NCBI GenBank assembly: GCA_016181585.1
Contig: JACOYX010000003.1
Location: 1-32,541, forward strand
Source: Candidatus Sungiibacteriota bacterium
GTDB taxonomy: Bacteria; Patescibacteriota; Minisyncoccia; Sungbacterales; HO2-52-23
DNA length: 32,541 nucleotides
Reading direction: 5' to 3'
The translations under genes were made by a program, and so were the position numbers. The notes under the pieces are model-generated. The model was not told the DNA's origin, made no database searches, and saw only the letters and a program-made list of their open reading frames with translations. Below are positions 2,258 through 24,708 of the stretch, one piece after another; the first letter of the stretch is position 1; every line of letters starts with the position of its first letter.

Positions 2258-2280
2258 ACTTGGAAGCTAAGCTTCCAAGT
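2258..2280 (+). repeat. REP-like palindrome, copy 1 (centre A)
   Basis: This is a perfect inverted repeat with 11-bp arms, ACTTGGAAGCT and AGCTTCCAAGT, around one central A. It is the first of four near-identical palindromes near the RAYT transposase gene. The central base gives each copy an orientation; this one matches copy 2. Confidence 0.85.
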
Positions 2281-2295
2281 ATACAGATGTAAATA

Positions 2296-2326
2296 AAAAA
2301 GCCATTCATGATGTGAATAGCTTTTT
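2296..2326. terminator. Bidirectional terminator between convergent genes
   Basis: A 13-bp stem with one mismatch (AAAAAGCCATTCA against TGAATAGCTTTTT) closes a 5-nt loop. It has A-runs on one side and T-runs on the other, so it can serve both the fibre gene and the convergent gene at 2348-2806. Confidence 0.7.
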
Positions 2327-2347
2327 ACTGCAAACTCTTATATATTT

Positions 2348-2806
2348 TCAGTGCCCTCTCTCGCCTTTTTTTAGAACCACATTGAGCATAATATTGTCGA
2401 AATATTCAGTCGGTATGAAATGCGTGTCATTTGAAGTAAGAATCAGCGTGGGCGCATTGATAACCTCGATATTGTCTTTTCCGGTTATTTCATTTGCCTC
2501 GTTTACAAAAATCGTTATTTCGATTTCTGCGTGATTTATATCAAGGCAATCGTTATCGTTCGGGTGCAGTACGAAGGGCGTGTGTTCGATCGCATCACCC
2601 TTTTGCCTTTCGAAGAGCGGGGGATATTCAGTGCGGAGAAAGACTTCGATATGATATTCTGAATTTTCAAACTGTTCTATAATCGCCATGATTTCGTCCA
2701 TGTGCGCGTGCGCGGACTGCATATTTTCGCTGTAGTAGGCAAGGATCAAGTCTTGCGATGCTTTTCCGAGCTCTCGCAAGCCTGTTTCGATTTCAGAAAC
2801 TATCAT
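2348..2806 (-). CDS. Hypothetical protein, 152 aa
   Basis: I do not recognise this family. The gene has an ATG start with a good ribosome binding site (GGAGAG a few bases upstream) and a TGA stop just before a shared terminator. The product is acidic and soluble, with no signal peptide or membrane segment. The N-terminal third looks helical (residues 1-45). The rest looks beta-rich, with stretches such as HIEVFLRTEYPP and AEIEITIFVNEANEI. It is convergent with the fibre gene and stands alone. The composition and start signal support a real gene; the function is unknown. Confidence 0.7.
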   Translation of the reverse strand: MIVSEIETGLRELGKASQDLILAYYSENMQSAHAHMDEIMAIIEQFENSEYHIEVFLRTEYPPLFERQKGDAIEHTPFVLHPNDNDCLDINHAEIEITIFVNEANEITGKDNIEVINAPTLILTSNDTHFIPTEYFDNIMLNVVLKKGERGH

Positions 2807-2894
2807 TTCTCTCTCCTGCTTCCATTTTAAAAAAGTTTTATTCTGCCGCCAGCATATATGAAAAACGCTGCCCTTGTCAATTTACCGCCACACC

Positions 2895-2916
2895 CTTGGA
2901 AGCTAAGCTTCCAAGT
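2895..2916 (+). repeat. REP-like palindrome, copy 2 (centre A)
   Basis: The same palindrome as copy 1, with 10-bp perfect arms and the same central A. It lies 14 bases upstream of the RAYT start codon and may overlap its promoter (GGTATAGTATTCAC follows). Confidence 0.85.
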
Positions 2917-2930
2917 GGTATAGTATTCAC

Positions 2931-3587
2931 ATGCGCAAAACTTTATTCGCCAACGGGGAGTATTATCATTTGTATAACCGCGGGGTGGACAAGCGGAATA
3001 TTTTTTCTGATTCTTACGATACTTCACGCTTTTTTCAAAGTATATCCGAGTTCAATAGTGTAGAGCCGATAGGGAGTATTTACGAAAACTCTTTTTCAAA
3101 AACAATTAAAGATAAGCAGGTGCTAAAAAGGAAATCAGAAAGTAAACTTGTGAATATGGTAGCGTATTGTCTCAATCCAAATCACTATCATTTTGTTGTT
3201 GAGCAAGTTGTTGATAGGGGGGTAGAAAAATTTATGCATAGGCTATCAACCGGCTATACTAAATATTTTAACAAAAAACATGATCGATCGGGCACACTGT
3301 TTCAGGGACCGTATAAGGCGGTGCATGTTGGTTCGAATGAGTATTTCTTACATTTAAGTGCTTATGTAAATCTTAATTACAAGGTTCATCGACTTGGAAG
3401 CTTAGCTTCCAAGTCGAGTTGGGAAGAGTATATTGGAGAAACGAATATGAGTTTTTGTTCTACAAAGCCAATTTTAGAGCAATTTAAAAATCAGCAAGAG
3501 TATAAAATATTTGCTCTCGAATCTGTACAATGTACTGCTGAACGAAGGCGGGCAGATAAAGAATTAGGGGATAAACTGTTAGAATAA
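2931..3587 (+). CDS. REP-associated tyrosine transposase (RAYT, Y1_Tnp family)
   Basis: This is a single-strand DNA transposase/endonuclease of the HUH superfamily, 218 aa, close to the usual RAYT length. It has the N-terminal YYHLYNRGVDKRNIF motif, the metal-binding HUH motif as His85-Tyr86-His87 within LNPNHYHFVV, and the catalytic tyrosine region LSTGYTKYFN (Tyr109 or Tyr112), followed by RSGTLFQGPYKA. RAYTs recognise and cut short palindromes (REPs) and are thought to be domesticated IS200/IS605-like enzymes. Here palindromes lie 14 bases before the start, inside the gene (encoding RLGSLASKS, residues 154-162) and 3 bases after the stop, which strongly supports the assignment. Residues 45-70 are a charged insert between the first motif and the HUH motif. 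No partner tnpB is present. Confidence 0.9.
   Translation: MRKTLFANGEYYHLYNRGVDKRNIFSDSYDTSRFFQSISEFNSVEPIGSIYENSFSKTIKDKQVLKRKSESKLVNMVAYCLNPNHYHFVVEQVVDRGVEKFMHRLSTGYTKYFNKKHDRSGTLFQGPYKAVHVGSNEYFLHLSAYVNLNYKVHRLGSLASKSSWEEYIGETNMSFCSTKPILEQFKNQQEYKIFALESVQCTAERRRADKELGDKLLE
3389..3417 (-). repeat. REP-like palindrome, copy 3, inside the RAYT gene (centre T)
   Basis: The core is identical to copies 1 and 2 but in the opposite orientation (central T). The arms extend to 14 bp because TCG and CGA flank the core. It is read in frame as part of the transposase. Confidence 0.85.
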
Positions 3588-3590
3588 ATT

Positions 3591-3613
3591 ACTTGGAAGC
3601 TTAGCTTCCAAGT
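3591..3613 (-). repeat. REP-like palindrome, copy 4 (centre T)
   Basis: A perfect 11-bp inverted repeat with central T, 3 bases after the RAYT stop codon. It is in the same orientation as copy 3 and opposite to copies 1 and 2, so the outer copies bracket the gene as an inverted pair. Confidence 0.85.
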
Positions 3614-3619
3614 AGAAAG

Positions 3620-3648
3620 TTGGTATTTTTTAAATTTTTATGTATACT
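3620..3648 (+). promoter_or_regulatory. Probable leuS promoter
   Basis: TTGGTA, a 17-nt spacer, then TATACT. Initiation about 7 bases after the -10 would leave a leader of only a few bases before the leuS ATG at 3662, which has no Shine-Dalgarno. This suggests near-leaderless translation. Confidence 0.5.
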
Positions 3649-3661
3649 TTTTCATAATATT

Positions 3662-6658
3662 ATGCGCTATAATCCCAAACAAATTGAAAAAAAATGGCAG
3701 AAAGTTTGGCTGAAGAAGGGTGTATATGAGCCCGACTTGAAGCGCGCGAAAAAGCCGTTTTATAACCTCATGATGTTTCCCTACCCTTCGGCGGAGGGGT
3801 TGCATATCGGGAGCGTACGCACATTCACGGGCGTCGATATCTACGGGCGCTTCAAGCGCATGCTGGGGTTTGACGTGTTTGAACCGATTGGTCTCGATGG
3901 CTTCGGCATACACTCGGAAAACTATGCGCTCAAAATTGGAAAACATCCGATGAAGCTCGCCAAAATTACTGAAAAAAATTTTTACCGTCAGCTAGCTGAA
4001 ATTGGCAACGGATTTTCATGGAAAGAGCATTTCGAAACATATGATCAGGAATATTATAAATGGACGCAGTGGGTATTTATACAGCTTTTTAAAAGAGGGC
4101 TAGCCTACCGGAAAAAGCAGGCGGTCAATTGGTGTCCTTCATGCTTAACCGTGCTTGCGGACGAGCAAGTTGTCTCCGGCGAATGCGAACGGTGCGGCGC
4201 AAAGGTCACAAAAAAAGAGCTTGAACAATGGTTTTTCCGGATCACCAAATATGCGGAGCGGCTATTGAATAATATAGATGGTAGTCCCTCGACCCAGAAT
4301 CCGACCGCCGATGCGGATGCTACGGGGCAGGCAAGCTCGGGAACTAAAAATTTAAAAGGGCTGGACTGGTCTGAAAATATAAAAATTGCGCAAAGGAATT
4401 GGATCGGGCGTTCGGAGGGTGCTGCAATCAAATTTGAACTTATTGATGTCCCCGGACAGCCGGACAAGAAGCATGCAGTGGAAATCTTTACCACGCGGCC
4501 CGACACGCTCTTTGGTGCGACGTTTCTCGTTATTTCTCCTGAACTTGCAAAGTTTTGGCTCGAAATCGGATGGGAAGCGCCGGAGGGAATTCGGAATTAT
4601 ATTGATGAGGCGCTCAAGAGGCGGATCCTTGAAAAAAGAGACCGCGACGGAAAAGACAAGACAGGCATCGAGAGCGGTATTTTCGCACTCAATCCTGCAA
4701 ATAAGGAGAAAATTCCCGTATGGATCTCGGATTATGTGCTGGCAGGATACGGCACGGGAGCAATTATGGCGGTTCCTGCGCATGACGAACGCGACTTTGA
4801 ATTTGCAAATAAGTTTGGTTTGCCAATTAAGCAAGTAGTTGCTCCCTATATGGTTGTTGACGGTACTGATGCGCCTCGCTCAAGTAATAATATTGTCAGA
4901 TTTAATGCGGCAACCGTGATTATTAAGCATTGGGCAAAGGATCTTTATTATGTGGTTGATTTTTCCGAGCATCATCGTGGTCTCGTTGGCGGACATATAG
5001 AAGAAGGGGAAACATCTGAACAAACGGCGTTACGCGAAACTCGAGAGGAATCCGGATATACGGATATCAAATTCATCTCGCTTGTTCTCGAGCATGCATA
5101 TTCACGGGGATACAAAACAAGAAAATCACGGGAAGAAGAATGTCACGATAGTGTGTTTGCGATTATTCTTGGAAGCGAGGCGCGCGTTGATATTGTTGAT
5201 CGCGAAACAAAAAAAGGACAATGGAAAACAAAGGAAGATATTCTGAATGACGCGCAATTTTCTAATCACCATAAAGAGTTTTTCTCTTTATACATAGGTC
5301 ATAAGCCCTTTACAGGGTCGGGGGTGCAGGTGAATTCCGGCAAATTCGACCGTATGGGTTCCGAAGAGGCGAAGCGGGCGATTACGGAATTTGTCGGCGG
5401 AAAAAGAAAAATACAGTATCACCTGCGCGATTGGCTCATTAGCCGCCAGCGATATTGGGGTCCGCCGATTCCCATGATTTTTTGCGAAGTATGTTATGGC
5501 GCAGGACGCGGAGAACAAAAGGAAATGCCGGGGTGGCATACGGTGCCGGAACAAGATTTGCCGGTAAAACTTCCTTTTGTGAAGGACTTTCGGCCGAAGG
5601 GAACAGGAACATCTCCGCTTGCAGAAGCCTCCATATTTTCCAAAGTAAAATGCCCCGCATGCAAAAAAACGGCGCGGCGCGAAACCGATGTTTCAGATAC
5701 ATTTCTCGATTCCGCTTGGTATTATTTGCGCTATCCCTCGGTAAATGAAAAAAAAGCGGCATGGAATAAAGAAATAACAAAAAAATGGCTGCCGGTGGAT
5801 ATGTATATCGGCGGAGCGGAGCATTCGGTGTTGCATCTCCTTTATTCGCGATTTATCGCTATGGTATTTTGCGATGCCAAGGTATTGCCTTTTGAAGAGC
5901 CTTTCACCACGTTCCGCGCTCACGGACTTATTACCAAAGACGGAGCAAAAATGTCGAAATCCAAAGGAAACGTCGTAAGCCCCGATGAATATATCCGCGC
6001 GTATGGGGCCGATGCGGTGCGCATGTATTTGGCGTTTTTGGCGCCTTTGCCCGAGGGCGGGGATTTTCGCGATGAAGGAATTCGGGGAATTACGAGATTT
6101 TTAGATCGGGTGTGGAAGTTTACAAATGAAAAAATAAAAATAAAAAATGAAAAACCGCAACGAAAAAAGAAAAACGAAATTCAATCGGCAGTACATAAAA
6201 CTATTAAGAAAGTAACTGGAGATGTAGAAGCGTTGCAATACAATACAGCCATTTCGGCATTAATGATTTTGTTGAATAAATTTGAAGAAAATACGGAAGA
6301 GATTTCAAGCGAAGACTGCAAGGTATTTTTGAAGCTTCTTGCCCCATTTGCACCGCATATCACGGAAGAATTATATCAATCACTAAAATCTAAGAGCTAT
6401 AAGCTAAAAGCTTTTTCAAGCATTCATAGTGAACCGTGGCCGAAATTTAATGCGAAGTTTATCCATGAAGAAACCTATGAATTGGTCGTGCAAGTAAACG
6501 GTAAAATACGCGATAAATTTGAAGTAGCACAGAATGTTTCCGAAAAAGAAGCGGTAGATTTGACACTCGCACGGGAAAAAGTTAAATTGTTGCTCAACAG
6601 TAAGCCGTATAAAAAAATAATTTTTGTTCCCGGACGGCTGGTCAATATTGTTCTTTGA
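3662..6658 (+). CDS. leuS: Leucyl-tRNA synthetase with inserted Nudix domain
   Basis: It charges tRNA-Leu with leucine in the cytoplasm. I start it at ATG 3662 (MRYNPKQIEKKW), the usual LeuRS N-terminus, rather than at the upstream TTG at 3620; that gives 998 aa. The signature motif at 48-51 reads HIGS instead of HIGH, in FPYPSAEGLHIGS. A zinc module CPSC/CERC lies at 158-178 and a second CEVC/CPAC at about 608-667. The editing domain keeps TTRPDTLFGATF (277-288) and AVPAHDERDFEFA (370-382). KMSKS is at 763-767, and the C-terminal domain ends in a VNGKIRDK motif region. Two insertions stand out: a low-complexity segment at 207-230, and a full Nudix domain at about 396-550, between LPIKQVV and GVQVNSGKFD. 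The catalytic motifs and frame are intact, so this is a working synthetase with an added domain. Confidence 0.95.
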   Translation: MRYNPKQIEKKWQKVWLKKGVYEPDLKRAKKPFYNLMMFPYPSAEGLHIGSVRTFTGVDIYGRFKRMLGFDVFEPIGLDGFGIHSENYALKIGKHPMKLAKITEKNFYRQLAEIGNGFSWKEHFETYDQEYYKWTQWVFIQLFKRGLAYRKKQAVNWCPSCLTVLADEQVVSGECERCGAKVTKKELEQWFFRITKYAERLLNNIDGSPSTQNPTADADATGQASSGTKNLKGLDWSENIKIAQRNWIGRSEGAAIKFELIDVPGQPDKKHAVEIFTTRPDTLFGATFLVISPELAKFWLEIGWEAPEGIRNYIDEALKRRILEKRDRDGKDKTGIESGIFALNPANKEKIPVWISDYVLAGYGTGAIMAVPAHDERDFEFANKFGLPIKQVVAPYMVVDGTDAPRSSNNIVRFNAATVIIKHWAKDLYYVVDFSEHHRGLVGGHIEEGETSEQTALRETREESGYTDIKFISLVLEHAYSRGYKTRKSREEECHDSVFAIILGSEARVDIVDRETKKGQWKTKEDILNDAQFSNHHKEFFSLYIGHKPFTGSGVQVNSGKFDRMGSEEAKRAITEFVGGKRKIQYHLRDWLISRQRYWGPPIPMIFCEVCYGAGRGEQKEMPGWHTVPEQDLPVKLPFVKDFRPKGTGTSPLAEASIFSKVKCPACKKTARRETDVSDTFLDSAWYYLRYPSVNEKKAAWNKEITKKWLPVDMYIGGAEHSVLHLLYSRFIAMVFCDAKVLPFEEPFTTFRAHGLITKDGAKMSKSKGNVVSPDEYIRAYGADAVRMYLAFLAPLPEGGDFRDEGIRGITRFLDRVWKFTNEKIKIKNEKPQRKKKNEIQSAVHKTIKKVTGDVEALQYNTAISALMILLNKFEENTEEISSEDCKVFLKLLAPFAPHITEELYQSLKSKSYKLKAFSSIHSEPWPKFNAKFIHEETYELVVQVNGKIRDKFEVAQNVSEKEAVDLTLAREKVKLLLNSKPYKKIIFVPGRLVNIVL
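4847..5311 (+). other. Nudix hydrolase domain inserted in LeuRS
   Basis: Residues about 396-550 of the product have no counterpart in canonical LeuRS, where the chain runs directly from the end of the editing domain (LPIK) to the NSG.FD motif. The insert holds a complete Nudix box at 444-466: Gly444, Glu450, Arg458-Glu459, Glu462-Glu463 and Gly465, in the order G-x5-E-x7-RE-x2-EE-x-G. Nudix enzymes cleave nucleoside diphosphates linked to another group, such as Ap4A, ADP-ribose or oxidised dNTPs. The insert is in frame, with base composition like the rest of leuS. The substrate cannot be told from sequence. Confidence 0.9.
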
Positions 6659-16006: not shown

Positions 16007-16036
16007 TCACACTGTCACAAGTGTGATTTTATTTTC
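16007..16036 (+). terminator. folD terminator
   Basis: A 7-bp stem TCACACT/AGTGTGA with a 6-nt loop is followed by TTTTATTTTC. Its 3' arm and T-tract run into the 37-nt direct repeat. Confidence 0.75.
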
Positions 16037-16060
16037 TTCAAAAGAGCATGCTTTTATTGC
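16024..16060 (+). repeat. 37-nt direct repeat, left copy
   Basis: An exact 37-nt match to 21735-21771, same orientation. It begins TGATTTTATTTTC and ends GCTTTTATTGC. The right copy ends within the 3' terminus of tRNA-Leu. The pair encloses the AT-rich island and may be the attachment-site pair of an integrated element. Confidence 0.85.
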
Positions 16061-17019: not shown

Positions 17020-17232
17020 CGGCGGCCACGCCTCAACAAAATTTTCTTCCACTTTTCTGATTTTGTGCGCGCCCATTTTCTTTTTCAATTAAGGAATAAG
17101 AAAATTTTGCTTCGGCGTTCTGCCCTGACGGGCAGGCGGAGGCGTGCTGACATTCCCATTTGGGCGCGGCGGAATTCCCCCCACACCCACCTTCCGCCGC
17201 GCCCTCGCAAAGAAAACATGGCGGTGTAAAAC
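17020..17232 (+). repeat. ~200-bp imperfect inverted repeat, left copy
   Basis: Aligned with the reverse complement of 21481-21688 it shows the same order of parts: a CACAAAA...TTTTCTTC segment, a tgtgcgcgc segment, AAGAAAA then TTTT, GCTTCGG, a GC-rich hairpin, GGCGGCGGAA, and a 37-nt inner end (17196-17232) that differs at only 3 positions. It contains a perfect 13-bp hairpin GGGCGCGGCGGAA/TTCCGCCGCGCCC at 17162-17204 and AAAATTTTCTT/AAGAAAATTTT arms. The rest of the gap 16808-17019 holds no gene; a TATAAT at 16918 is a possible promoter. Confidence 0.75.
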
Positions 17233-17243
17233 AGTTAAAATTC

Positions 17244-19873: not shown

Positions 19874-21481
19874 ATGGAAACGCTTAAAAAAATAATTAAA
19901 AAGCCGCTAATAGTTGTTGTTATCGCGTTCGTGATTGCGGTTTTTGTCATTGGAAAGAAAATTAAGTATTATGCTGCCAATCCAGCAGGCGAGAAAGATT
20001 GTCCGCCGCTTTTTCCAAATTTTGTTGGTGATCCGTCTAAGCAAAACAGGATTGAAATTGATGTGTCTCAATATGAACTCCCTTGGACGCAAAAGGGTGG
20101 CTTTATCAACGATGCAAGCTGCCTTAACAAAACTTCGGTGCATGGAGTTGTTTCGATACAAAACGTAGATGATATAAAAAATGCTTTGATTTTTGCGAAA
20201 GATGAAAATCTTAAAGTATCTATTGCGGGAGTTAAACATAGCATGGGCGGGCACGCATTTTATAAAAACGCTCTGATTTTAGACATGACGAAATTTAATC
20301 AAATGACGCTTAATGAAGAAAGTAAAATCCTAAACGTCAAGAGCGGCGCAACATGGCACGACATTCAAAATTTCCTTCACCCTAAATTTGCTGTCAAAGC
20401 TATGCAGTCCACCGATATTTTTACTATTGGCGGGTCAATTTCTGTCAATGCTCATGGGATGGATCATCACGCTGGAGCGATTGCAAGAACTATTCGCTCC
20501 ATGCGAGTTATGCTTTCTGATGGCTCAATAAAGAACATAAGCCGTGCTTAAAATCCGGAACTGTTTAGCTTGGTTGTTGGCGGCTATGGTCTTTTTGGGA
20601 TAGTACTTGATGTTGATTTGGAGATTACAGACAATGTGGTTTACCAGTCCGAACGAGAAGTTATTGACTACAAAGAATTTCCGGACGTATTCAATCGTAA
20701 AATCGAAAATGACGAGAATATAGGCTTGTTTTATGGTCATCTTTCTACGGTGCCGCAATCTTTTTTGAAAGAGATGATTTTATATACCTATAAAAAAGTT
20801 GATGTGCCCGACGCGAAAATTCCTCCACTCGGGGAGGTGAGCAATATCAAGTTGCGGAGGTTTATTTTTAATTTTGCTAAACAAGGGTCAGTTCCAATGC
20901 GATTAAAATGGTTTGCCGAGAAATATATTGAACCAATGCTCGAAAATTGTCCGGTTTCAAGAAACCAGGCACTCGGCGAGGGGGAGGCCTGTTTGGTATC
21001 GCGCAATGAACCGATGCATGATTCTGTCCCATATCTTCGAAATAATCTGAAAAATGATACGGATATATTGCATGAATATTTTGTCCCCCGCGATCAGTTC
21101 GCTTCGTATATTGACGGGATGAGAGAAATTATACTTAAAAATAATGCAAACCTCCTTAATGCTTCAGTTCGCGTCGTGCACAAAGAAAATAACTTTTTAA
21201 ACTATTCTCCCGCCGATACGTTCTCGATTGTGTTGTATCTGAATCAAACTACGGACGAAAAAGGAAATCAGAATATGCAAAAGGTTACGCAAGAGCTTAT
21301 TGATCTGACTATTGCACACGGTGGAAGATTCTTTTTGCCGTATCAGCTACATTACACAGCTGATCAACTAAAGCAGTCATACCCTGAATTTAGGTCATTT
21401 TTGGCGATGAAAAATAAATATGATCCGCAAGAACGATTGACAAGCACATTCTATAAAAAGTATTCTGCTGAAATTGAGTAG
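19874..21481 (+). pseudogene. FAD-linked oxidase with one in-frame TAA
   Basis: The two halves (19874-20548 and 20552-21481) are in the same frame and together would make about 535 residues. An N-terminal membrane segment (about 10-27) is followed by an FAD-binding (PCMH-type) domain: VSIAGVKHSMGG, LNVKSGATWHDI, TIGGSISVNAHGMDHHAG. The codon at 20549-20551 is TAA, in SRA-stop-NPELF, where relatives have an acidic residue. GAA to TAA is one base change. After it the protein resumes with LVVGGYGLFGIV and a normal C-terminal part. By family it oxidises a sugar lactone or similar hydroxyl substrate and passes electrons on. It is either a very recent pseudogene, a read-through product or a sequence error; nothing else in it is damaged. 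Confidence 0.85.
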
Positions 21482-21688
21482 TTTTACACCGCCACGTTTT
21501 CACTGCGAGGGCGCGGCAGGAGGGTGTGTGTGGTTCCGCCGCCCCCGAGCCGGAAGCGAAGCCCCGTCGTCCCGCGCGATTGAGCGCGGAGCCGAGCAAA
21601 AAAGTTTTCTTTTCCTTTTAGAAGAAAAAATCCGGCGCGCGCACATCAGGAAAAGCGAAGAAAACTTTTTTGTGGGGTGGCGAGCGTC
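21481..21688 (-). repeat. ~200-bp imperfect inverted repeat, right copy
   Basis: The reverse-complement counterpart of 17020-17232. Its first 37 bases (21481-21517, starting GTTTTACACCGCC) match the left inner end at 34 positions and begin on the last base of the oxidase stop. It contains its own perfect 15-bp inverted arms, CAAAAAAGTTTTCTT (21597-21611) and AAGAAAACTTTTTTG (21658-21672). No gene is supported between 21482 and 21768. Confidence 0.75.
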
Positions 21689-21714: not shown

Positions 21715-21742
21715 AAAATCACGCTCGATAAGCATGATTTTA
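21715..21742. terminator. Terminator between the cassette and tRNA-Leu
   Basis: An 11-bp stem AAAATCACGCT/AGCATGATTTT with one wobble pair and T-rich flanks on both sides. On the minus strand it follows the tRNA-Leu gene; on the plus strand it would end cassette transcripts. Confidence 0.65.
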
Positions 21743-21771
21743 TTTTCTTCAAAAGAGCATGCTTTTATTGC
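21735..21771 (+). repeat. 37-nt direct repeat, right copy, touching tRNA-Leu
   Basis: Identical to 16024-16060. Its last three bases are the 3' terminal bases of the tRNA-Leu gene on the other strand. The repeat includes AAAAG-AGCATG-CTTTT, itself a small hairpin. Confidence 0.85.
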
Positions 21772-24600: not shown

Positions 24601-24653
24601 TAGACCTACTGCGTAAAGATTTGCGTAACGAAAATCTTTACGCAGTAGGTCTA
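24601..24653. repeat. Perfect 22-bp inverted repeat with 9-nt loop
   Basis: The arms run from 24601 to 24622 (starting TAGACCTACTGCG) and 24632 to 24653 with no mismatch. It lies 4 bases from the 52-nt palindrome. There is no T-run after it, so it is not an ordinary terminator. Confidence 0.85.
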
Positions 24654-24656
24654 TTG

Positions 24657-24708
24657 GTTTATAATTAACAAAATCCCCACGATCGTGGGGATTTTGTTAA
24701 TTATAAAC
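24657..24708. repeat. Perfect 52-nt palindrome
   Basis: Each half is 26 bases and the centre is CGATCG with no loop. The inner part (AAAATCCCCACGA and its complement) could act as a two-way terminator between the parAB operon and rel, which converge here. The outer parts are AT-rich and carry TATAAT on each strand; on the plus strand TTTACG lies 17 bases upstream of it. Confidence 0.85.

Follow-up and report, generated by a model that had tools for sequence, protein, structure and literature searches.

A RAYT-type transposase gene that has copies of one short palindrome on both sides, and another copy inside its own coding sequence, raises the question of how the enzyme and the palindromes are related and how the copies stay alike. 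Such a gene lies in the window, the whole stretch of 32,541 nucleotides analysed here. The palindrome core, CTTGGAAGCTWAGCTTCCAAG, occurs with 0 mismatches at positions 2259-2279, 2895-2915, 3393-3413 and 3592-3612, and shuffling of the window gives an expectation of 0.00 core copies even with 3 mismatches allowed. A preliminary description of this DNA had reported four copies of one palindrome around the gene, with central bases A, A, T and T, and both statements hold exactly at all four places. The first copy (2258-2280, central A) is intergenic and follows an ORF with an S74 domain. As it lies about 650 bp upstream of the RAYT gene, behind another ORF, it is a neighbour and does not mark the gene edge. 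The second copy (2895-2915, central A) ends 15 nt before the start codon, and the fourth (3590-3614, central T) begins 3 nt past the stop codon. The third copy (3389-3417, central T), whose location inside the coding sequence had been overlooked, is in frame: CTT GGA AGC TTA GCT TCC AAG is read as LGSLASK, at about residues 154-161. In the structure model, this peptide falls in the loop after the Tyr145 helix.

The gene (2931-3587, forward strand) encodes a 218-residue protein, which matches PF01797 with an E-value of 2.7e-9 and a profile score of 37.7 bits against a cut-off of 23, and thus belongs to the Y1 HuH superfamily. Its translation contains the HuH motif H85-Y86-H87 (HYH, residues 85-87; 3183-3191, forward strand) and a YVNLN motif with the putative catalytic Tyr145 (3363-3365, forward strand), the role of which is assigned from the family. 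N84, H85, H87, Y145 and N149 are invariant in an alignment of 69 sequences. The structure model has a mean pLDDT of 92, and the best fold match in the PDB is 4er8, the E. coli RAYT bound to a REP hairpin (E 2.2e-5). The NCBIfam equivalog NF047646 gives E 8.4e-5 and 22.5 bits, its cut-off being 80 bits, and scores 35-42 bits on four relatives. The fold and the association with cognate palindromes support a protein of the RAYT type, in agreement with its first annotation.

The same layout is found in related genes. The source genome (G000; 0.87 Mb, 31 contigs, 86% complete) has four such RAYT genes. In three of them a private palindrome, different for each gene, occurs on both sides and within the coding sequence; the fourth (L002) has a palindrome upstream only. 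The taxonomic family (13 genomes) contains 19 RAYT matches in 8 genomes. Cognate palindromes, defined as sharing a 9-mer, form a pair at 15 of these 19 loci and include an internal copy at 14. The corresponding counts are 60 and 39 for 80 loci from named genomes, a set consisting mostly of Patescibacteria, in which a few MAGs labelled Gammaproteobacteria, Spirochaetia and Omnitrophota may be misbinned. Across the phylum, 60 loci were drawn from 68 candidates among the matches listed, by frame length and E-value, and 12 of them have a cognate pair and 5 a cognate internal copy. With the pair present in only 12 of the 58 RAYT-like genes of this even sample, the link between RAYT and palindrome is clade-specific. 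Removal of 6 proteins below 180 residues and 2 near-identical ones from 159 loci left a non-redundant set of 151 RAYTs of at least 180 residues; 64 of them have matching palindromes before and after the gene, 54 have an internal one, and 82 have either. On a quick RAYT tree of 150 rows, many branches of which are weak, the palindrome trait needs at least 24 changes.

A chance origin of the palindromes was rejected by the reversed pattern, codon shuffles, window shuffles and cognacy in unselected loci. Counted without preselection for matches, 49 RAYTs carry a strong palindrome within the two loops. A strong flanking one accompanies it in 42 genes, and in 39 of these 42 the two are cognate. When loci of the 80-locus set are swapped, an internal palindrome matches the flanks of another locus in 150 of 6320 ordered pairs, compared with 39 of the 80 real loci. 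Under a looser definition, an internal palindrome is observed in 41 of 79 genes and in 10.65 of 79 after codon shuffling, a background that counts against the finding.

The internal copies are centred at residues 54-72 or 148-162, except for two near the C-terminus. In the non-redundant set, the first loop holds a copy in 39 RAYTs and the second in 19, with 4 RAYTs having copies in both. Of the 65 internal copies, 41 precede HuH, 20 follow the Y motif (the two C-terminal ones included) and 3 were not placed; a single copy scored between HuH and Y (L049) is a motif-search error. The 65 copies thus do not show the location between HuH and Y that marks subclass 2.4 of the RAYTs. A conserved peptide was rejected as the cause of the internal palindrome, because all three reading frames are used over the whole set. 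The window's clade, though, uses a single frame.

In the 18 loci of this clade, the palindrome has a nearly invariant foot (ACTTGG/CCAAGT) and a variable upper stem, with stem pairs 7-9 changing on both sides together. All 162 of 162 cells are paired. Double-side changes number 21, compared with 4.7 in shuffles, and when the alignment is slid no more than 57.6% of cells pair. Judged by this covariation, the stem is selected as a stem. The symmetry extends up to a single central base in 102 of 216 cognate palindromes. For 82 RAYTs, the distance between palindromes correlates with that between proteins, the palindrome-coded residues being masked (Mantel r 0.395, 0 of 2000 permutations). The private palindromes track the RAYT phylogeny, so that gene and palindrome appear to evolve together.

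The palindromes are also dispersed. A genome-wide count of the 21-mer, which had been suggested as a check, finds the window palindrome at 10 places in the source genome (7 exact, 1 with 2 mismatches and 2 with 3) and the reversed-pattern control at 0. Besides the four exact copies in the window, two are intergenic (C2:650 and C24:87011), and one is in frame in a gene (C20:59757) which, from its motifs, we take to be uvrA. Among the 13 family genomes, exact copies are confined to the source genome. A version with 2-3 mismatches is present at 4 places in G010, yet this genome has no Y1_Tnp match, which counts against the link. The same genome has two paralogous ORFs (L275 and L276) with an identical in-frame palindrome. 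The palindrome of the L004 type has 34 exact copies in the 13 genomes (G011 18, G002 10, G000 4, G004 1, G012 1). As many as 32 of the 34 fall in G011, G002 and G000, the three that possess the L004 type of RAYT, and this palindrome is thereby linked to its RAYT type; the remaining family genomes have variants with 1-2 mismatches or none. The L003-type palindrome occurs 3 times in G000, 6 times in G002 and once, with 3 mismatches, in G011. Exact solo copies are few, with a maximum of 18 per genome. In one solo copy of the source genome (L005, 636-684 on C2), the palindrome continues for another 14 nt of locus-specific sequence on each side, as if the copy had entered the loop of a hairpin that was already there.

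Several solo copies fall within host genes and keep the reading frame: ileS, miaA, mnmA (a 2-mismatch copy) and rsmA in G002, rsmA in G010, tsaE in G004, leucyl aminopeptidase in G011, and a peptidase-like gene in G002 and G012, named in G012 by likeness only. Some of the proteins behind these names are fragments or score below the cut-off. A copy in PolX (L271) may be native sequence. The host loops could be read for UvrA in 8 of the 9 other genomes with a match, for IleRS in 7 of 13 genomes with a match, and for RsmA in 6 of 12 such genomes (5 by motif, G002 separately). The palindrome is absent from the ileS loop in 6 of 6 other genomes read and from the uvrA linker in 8 of 8. No clean, base-exact empty site for uvrA, ileS or rsmA was found among the readable loops of relatives; the host loops are hypervariable and differ in length in all relatives, so the exact ends of the insertions are unreadable. 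In G007, the loops of IleRS (L284) and UvrA (L220) that accept the palindrome elsewhere hold other long repeat-like inserts, such as HSERSEES in UvrA, as if these loops were general landing sites.

Copies within one locus resemble each other more than they resemble their counterparts in relatives. In 29 of 37 comparisons, the internal copy is closer to its own flanks than to the corresponding site in the nearest relative; 3 are equal and 5 show the reverse (L045, L052, L060 twice, and L020). The mean likeness is 0.86 to the own flanks and 0.63 to the relative's site. With the comparison limited to cognate copies, 29 of 40 are closer to their own flanks and 7 show the reverse. Such a concerted pattern requires either that sequence is copied from one site to another or that new copies keep being inserted at one spot and in one frame. 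Of the two, copying seems to us the more likely.

By combining these observations, it is possible to describe a likely course of events. The RAYT gene and its palindromes probably constitute a REPtron-like unit, in which the enzyme recognises its private hairpin, copies land in tolerant protein loops, and the copies are kept alike. The RAYT, with its HuH motif and one tyrosine, would recognise the private palindrome as a single-stranded hairpin. Binding, nicking and joining of this hairpin are presumed by analogy with the E. coli and Stenotrophomonas TnpA_REP, for which these reactions are reported (PMC8266576). Now and then, the enzyme might nick and transfer copies, leaving a few to about 18 exact ones scattered in the genome. 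Some of these would fall within surface loops of proteins, in frame, and be tolerated there. The RAYT gene itself has copies at its start, at its stop and, within the coding sequence, in one or two loops. As these copies remain similar even though the palindrome changes from lineage to lineage, we infer that they are repeatedly replaced or re-inserted from one sequence pool.

It is quite possible, if not the probable course, that insertion and turnover suffice: the copies would be independent recent insertions, favoured in cis near the RAYT gene, and the internal ones would survive in two tolerant loops and never be replaced. Tolerance predicts the two-loop distribution, and the loops in question coincide with parts of low confidence in the window's structure model (lowest at residues 51-70, with pLDDT 72 for 51-60 and 65 for 61-70, and a dip to 83 at 151-160). 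Some loci also have unlike copies (L049, L052 and L045), which weighs against the REPtron-like reading as well. Re-insertion alone explains poorly, however, that in sister genes the palindrome keeps its place and its frame although its letters differ, as in the LGxxxxK series and the SYExRSH series (L003/L022).

A further extension of the REPtron-like reading, which we regard as rather doubtful, is that the RAYT product rewrites its own coding sequence by replacing the palindromes in and around the gene with the current copy. If so, a protein segment such as LGxxxxK would be set by homogenisation at the DNA level and not by protein selection, and the enzyme could drift along with its recognition site, the two still matching.

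Control of expression seems an unlikely primary role. The palindromes at the start, inside the coding sequence and at the stop would then be operators or mRNA hairpins controlling the RAYT gene, with mobility being minor. The cognate upstream copies are indeed mostly 5-50 nt from the start codon and the downstream ones cluster at the stop codon, and the transposase of ISPpu9, an IS inserted in REPs, is reported to be controlled by a structure in the mRNA 5' UTR (PMC8450116). Solo copies in unrelated intergenic sites and in host genes, however, do not fit an operator private to one gene, and the internal copy is missing or shifted in many relatives.

The preliminary description had compared the locus, in a very different lineage, to gammaproteobacterial REPtrons with a mirror arrangement. 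The distance between the lineages is borne out. The likeness extends to cognate palindromes and dispersed copies and stops short of the palindrome type: a GT[AG]G foot is present at 6 of 432 palindrome feet, compared with 136 of 4100 random 10-mers, and is thus rarer than random, so that a GTAG-type foot was rejected. The mirror arrangement is real in the window but reflects no conserved rule. With orientation judged by the apex bases, the before/after copies of the 64 RAYTs are direct in 28 cases and inverted in 25, with 4 undecidable and 7 unscored; before/inside copies are direct in 16 and inverted in 22, and inside/after copies in 19 and 20. A conserved inverted arrangement as in canonical REPtrons was rejected on these near-even counts, and the window shows one possible outcome. 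That a canonical gammaproteobacterial REPtron was acquired by transfer is very improbable. The RAYT fold, the flanking and dispersed palindromes and a coevolution like that in Nunvar 2010 (PMC2817692) speak for it; the missing foot already contradicts it, and the lack of inverted preference, the low copy number and the NF047646 score speak against it.

Comparison with known systems places the locus more closely. The gammaproteobacterial REPtrons have a GT(A/G)G head, fixed inverted flanking and usually >100 copies per genome (PMC2817692); they share with the loci here a RAYT with coevolving, flanking cognate palindromes, whereas here there is no such head or fixed orientation, and exact copies number up to 18. 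In subclass 2.4 (Bertels group 4), REPs flank the RAYT gene and are inserted in frame within it, as here, but generally between HuH and Y (Quentin et al. 2018, PMC6006769). That subclass has a GT[AG]G foot or double foot, a median HuH-Y distance of 88 residues and the Y motif YIxNNP; here the inserts lie before HuH or after Y, the foot is absent, the distance is about 60 residues and the motif is YIHLNP/YVNLN. Compared by motifs only, the consensus of the RAYTs here (NHYH/NHFH, FQG, YIHLNP or YINLN, SS) is similar to subclass 2.1 (Bertels group 1), with NH[YF]H, FQ, Y[IV]HLNP and SS, about 240 residues and about 60 between HuH and Y. No REP-like sequences are reported near subclass 2.1 genes (PMC6006769). 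Many of the RAYTs here do have palindromes; the part of the RAYT tree with MPRQPR/MARQPR-type proteins has none (0 of 18 rows), and the sampled genes of this type are in that respect like subclass 2.1. Intragenic REPs and Rickettsia RPEs, short palindromes in host genes including uvrA, are tagged by GTAG/CGTC in the 2013 paper PMC3733652, whereas the palindromes here are untagged and tied to a private RAYT. TIRYTs, described in the same paper, are likewise Y1 transposases flanked by non-GTAG repeats, some of them self-complementary; copies within the TIRYT gene are not described in the text available, and are present in the RAYT genes here. Intragenic REPs in RAYTs and host genes having been published already, the present system is a variant. 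No description of RAYT palindromes in Patescibacteria was found in the main texts of the open-licence papers searched. The new part is the lineage, the insertion sites, the missing foot and the concerted evolution.

The movement of REPs is not known to have been seen directly. The loci described here bear on how REPs spread and on how RAYT and REP stay matched, as they provide a broad natural series of RAYTs with private hairpins, one copy of each being fixed at a defined position within the gene. Since this internal copy separates inheritance of the site from replacement of the sequence, copying driven by the RAYT becomes testable by comparison. Copies in host genes, among them ileS, miaA, tsaE and rsmA, also show that streamlined genomes accept short inserts in frame.

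Other features of the window deserve mention. The ORF at 74-2230 is repetitive, with an S74 endosialidase-chaperone domain at residues 444-505 of 718. The leucyl-tRNA synthetase ORF at 3620-6658 has a NUDIX domain (residues 450-556, E 2.9e-12) between its editing and catalytic parts. A 42-nt direct pair (95%; 16019-16060 and 21730-21771) and a 54-nt inverted pair (81%; 17190-17243 and 21470-21523) are unrelated to the palindrome. Two long, near-perfect hairpins with arms of 26 nt each are adjacent to one another at 24601-24708.
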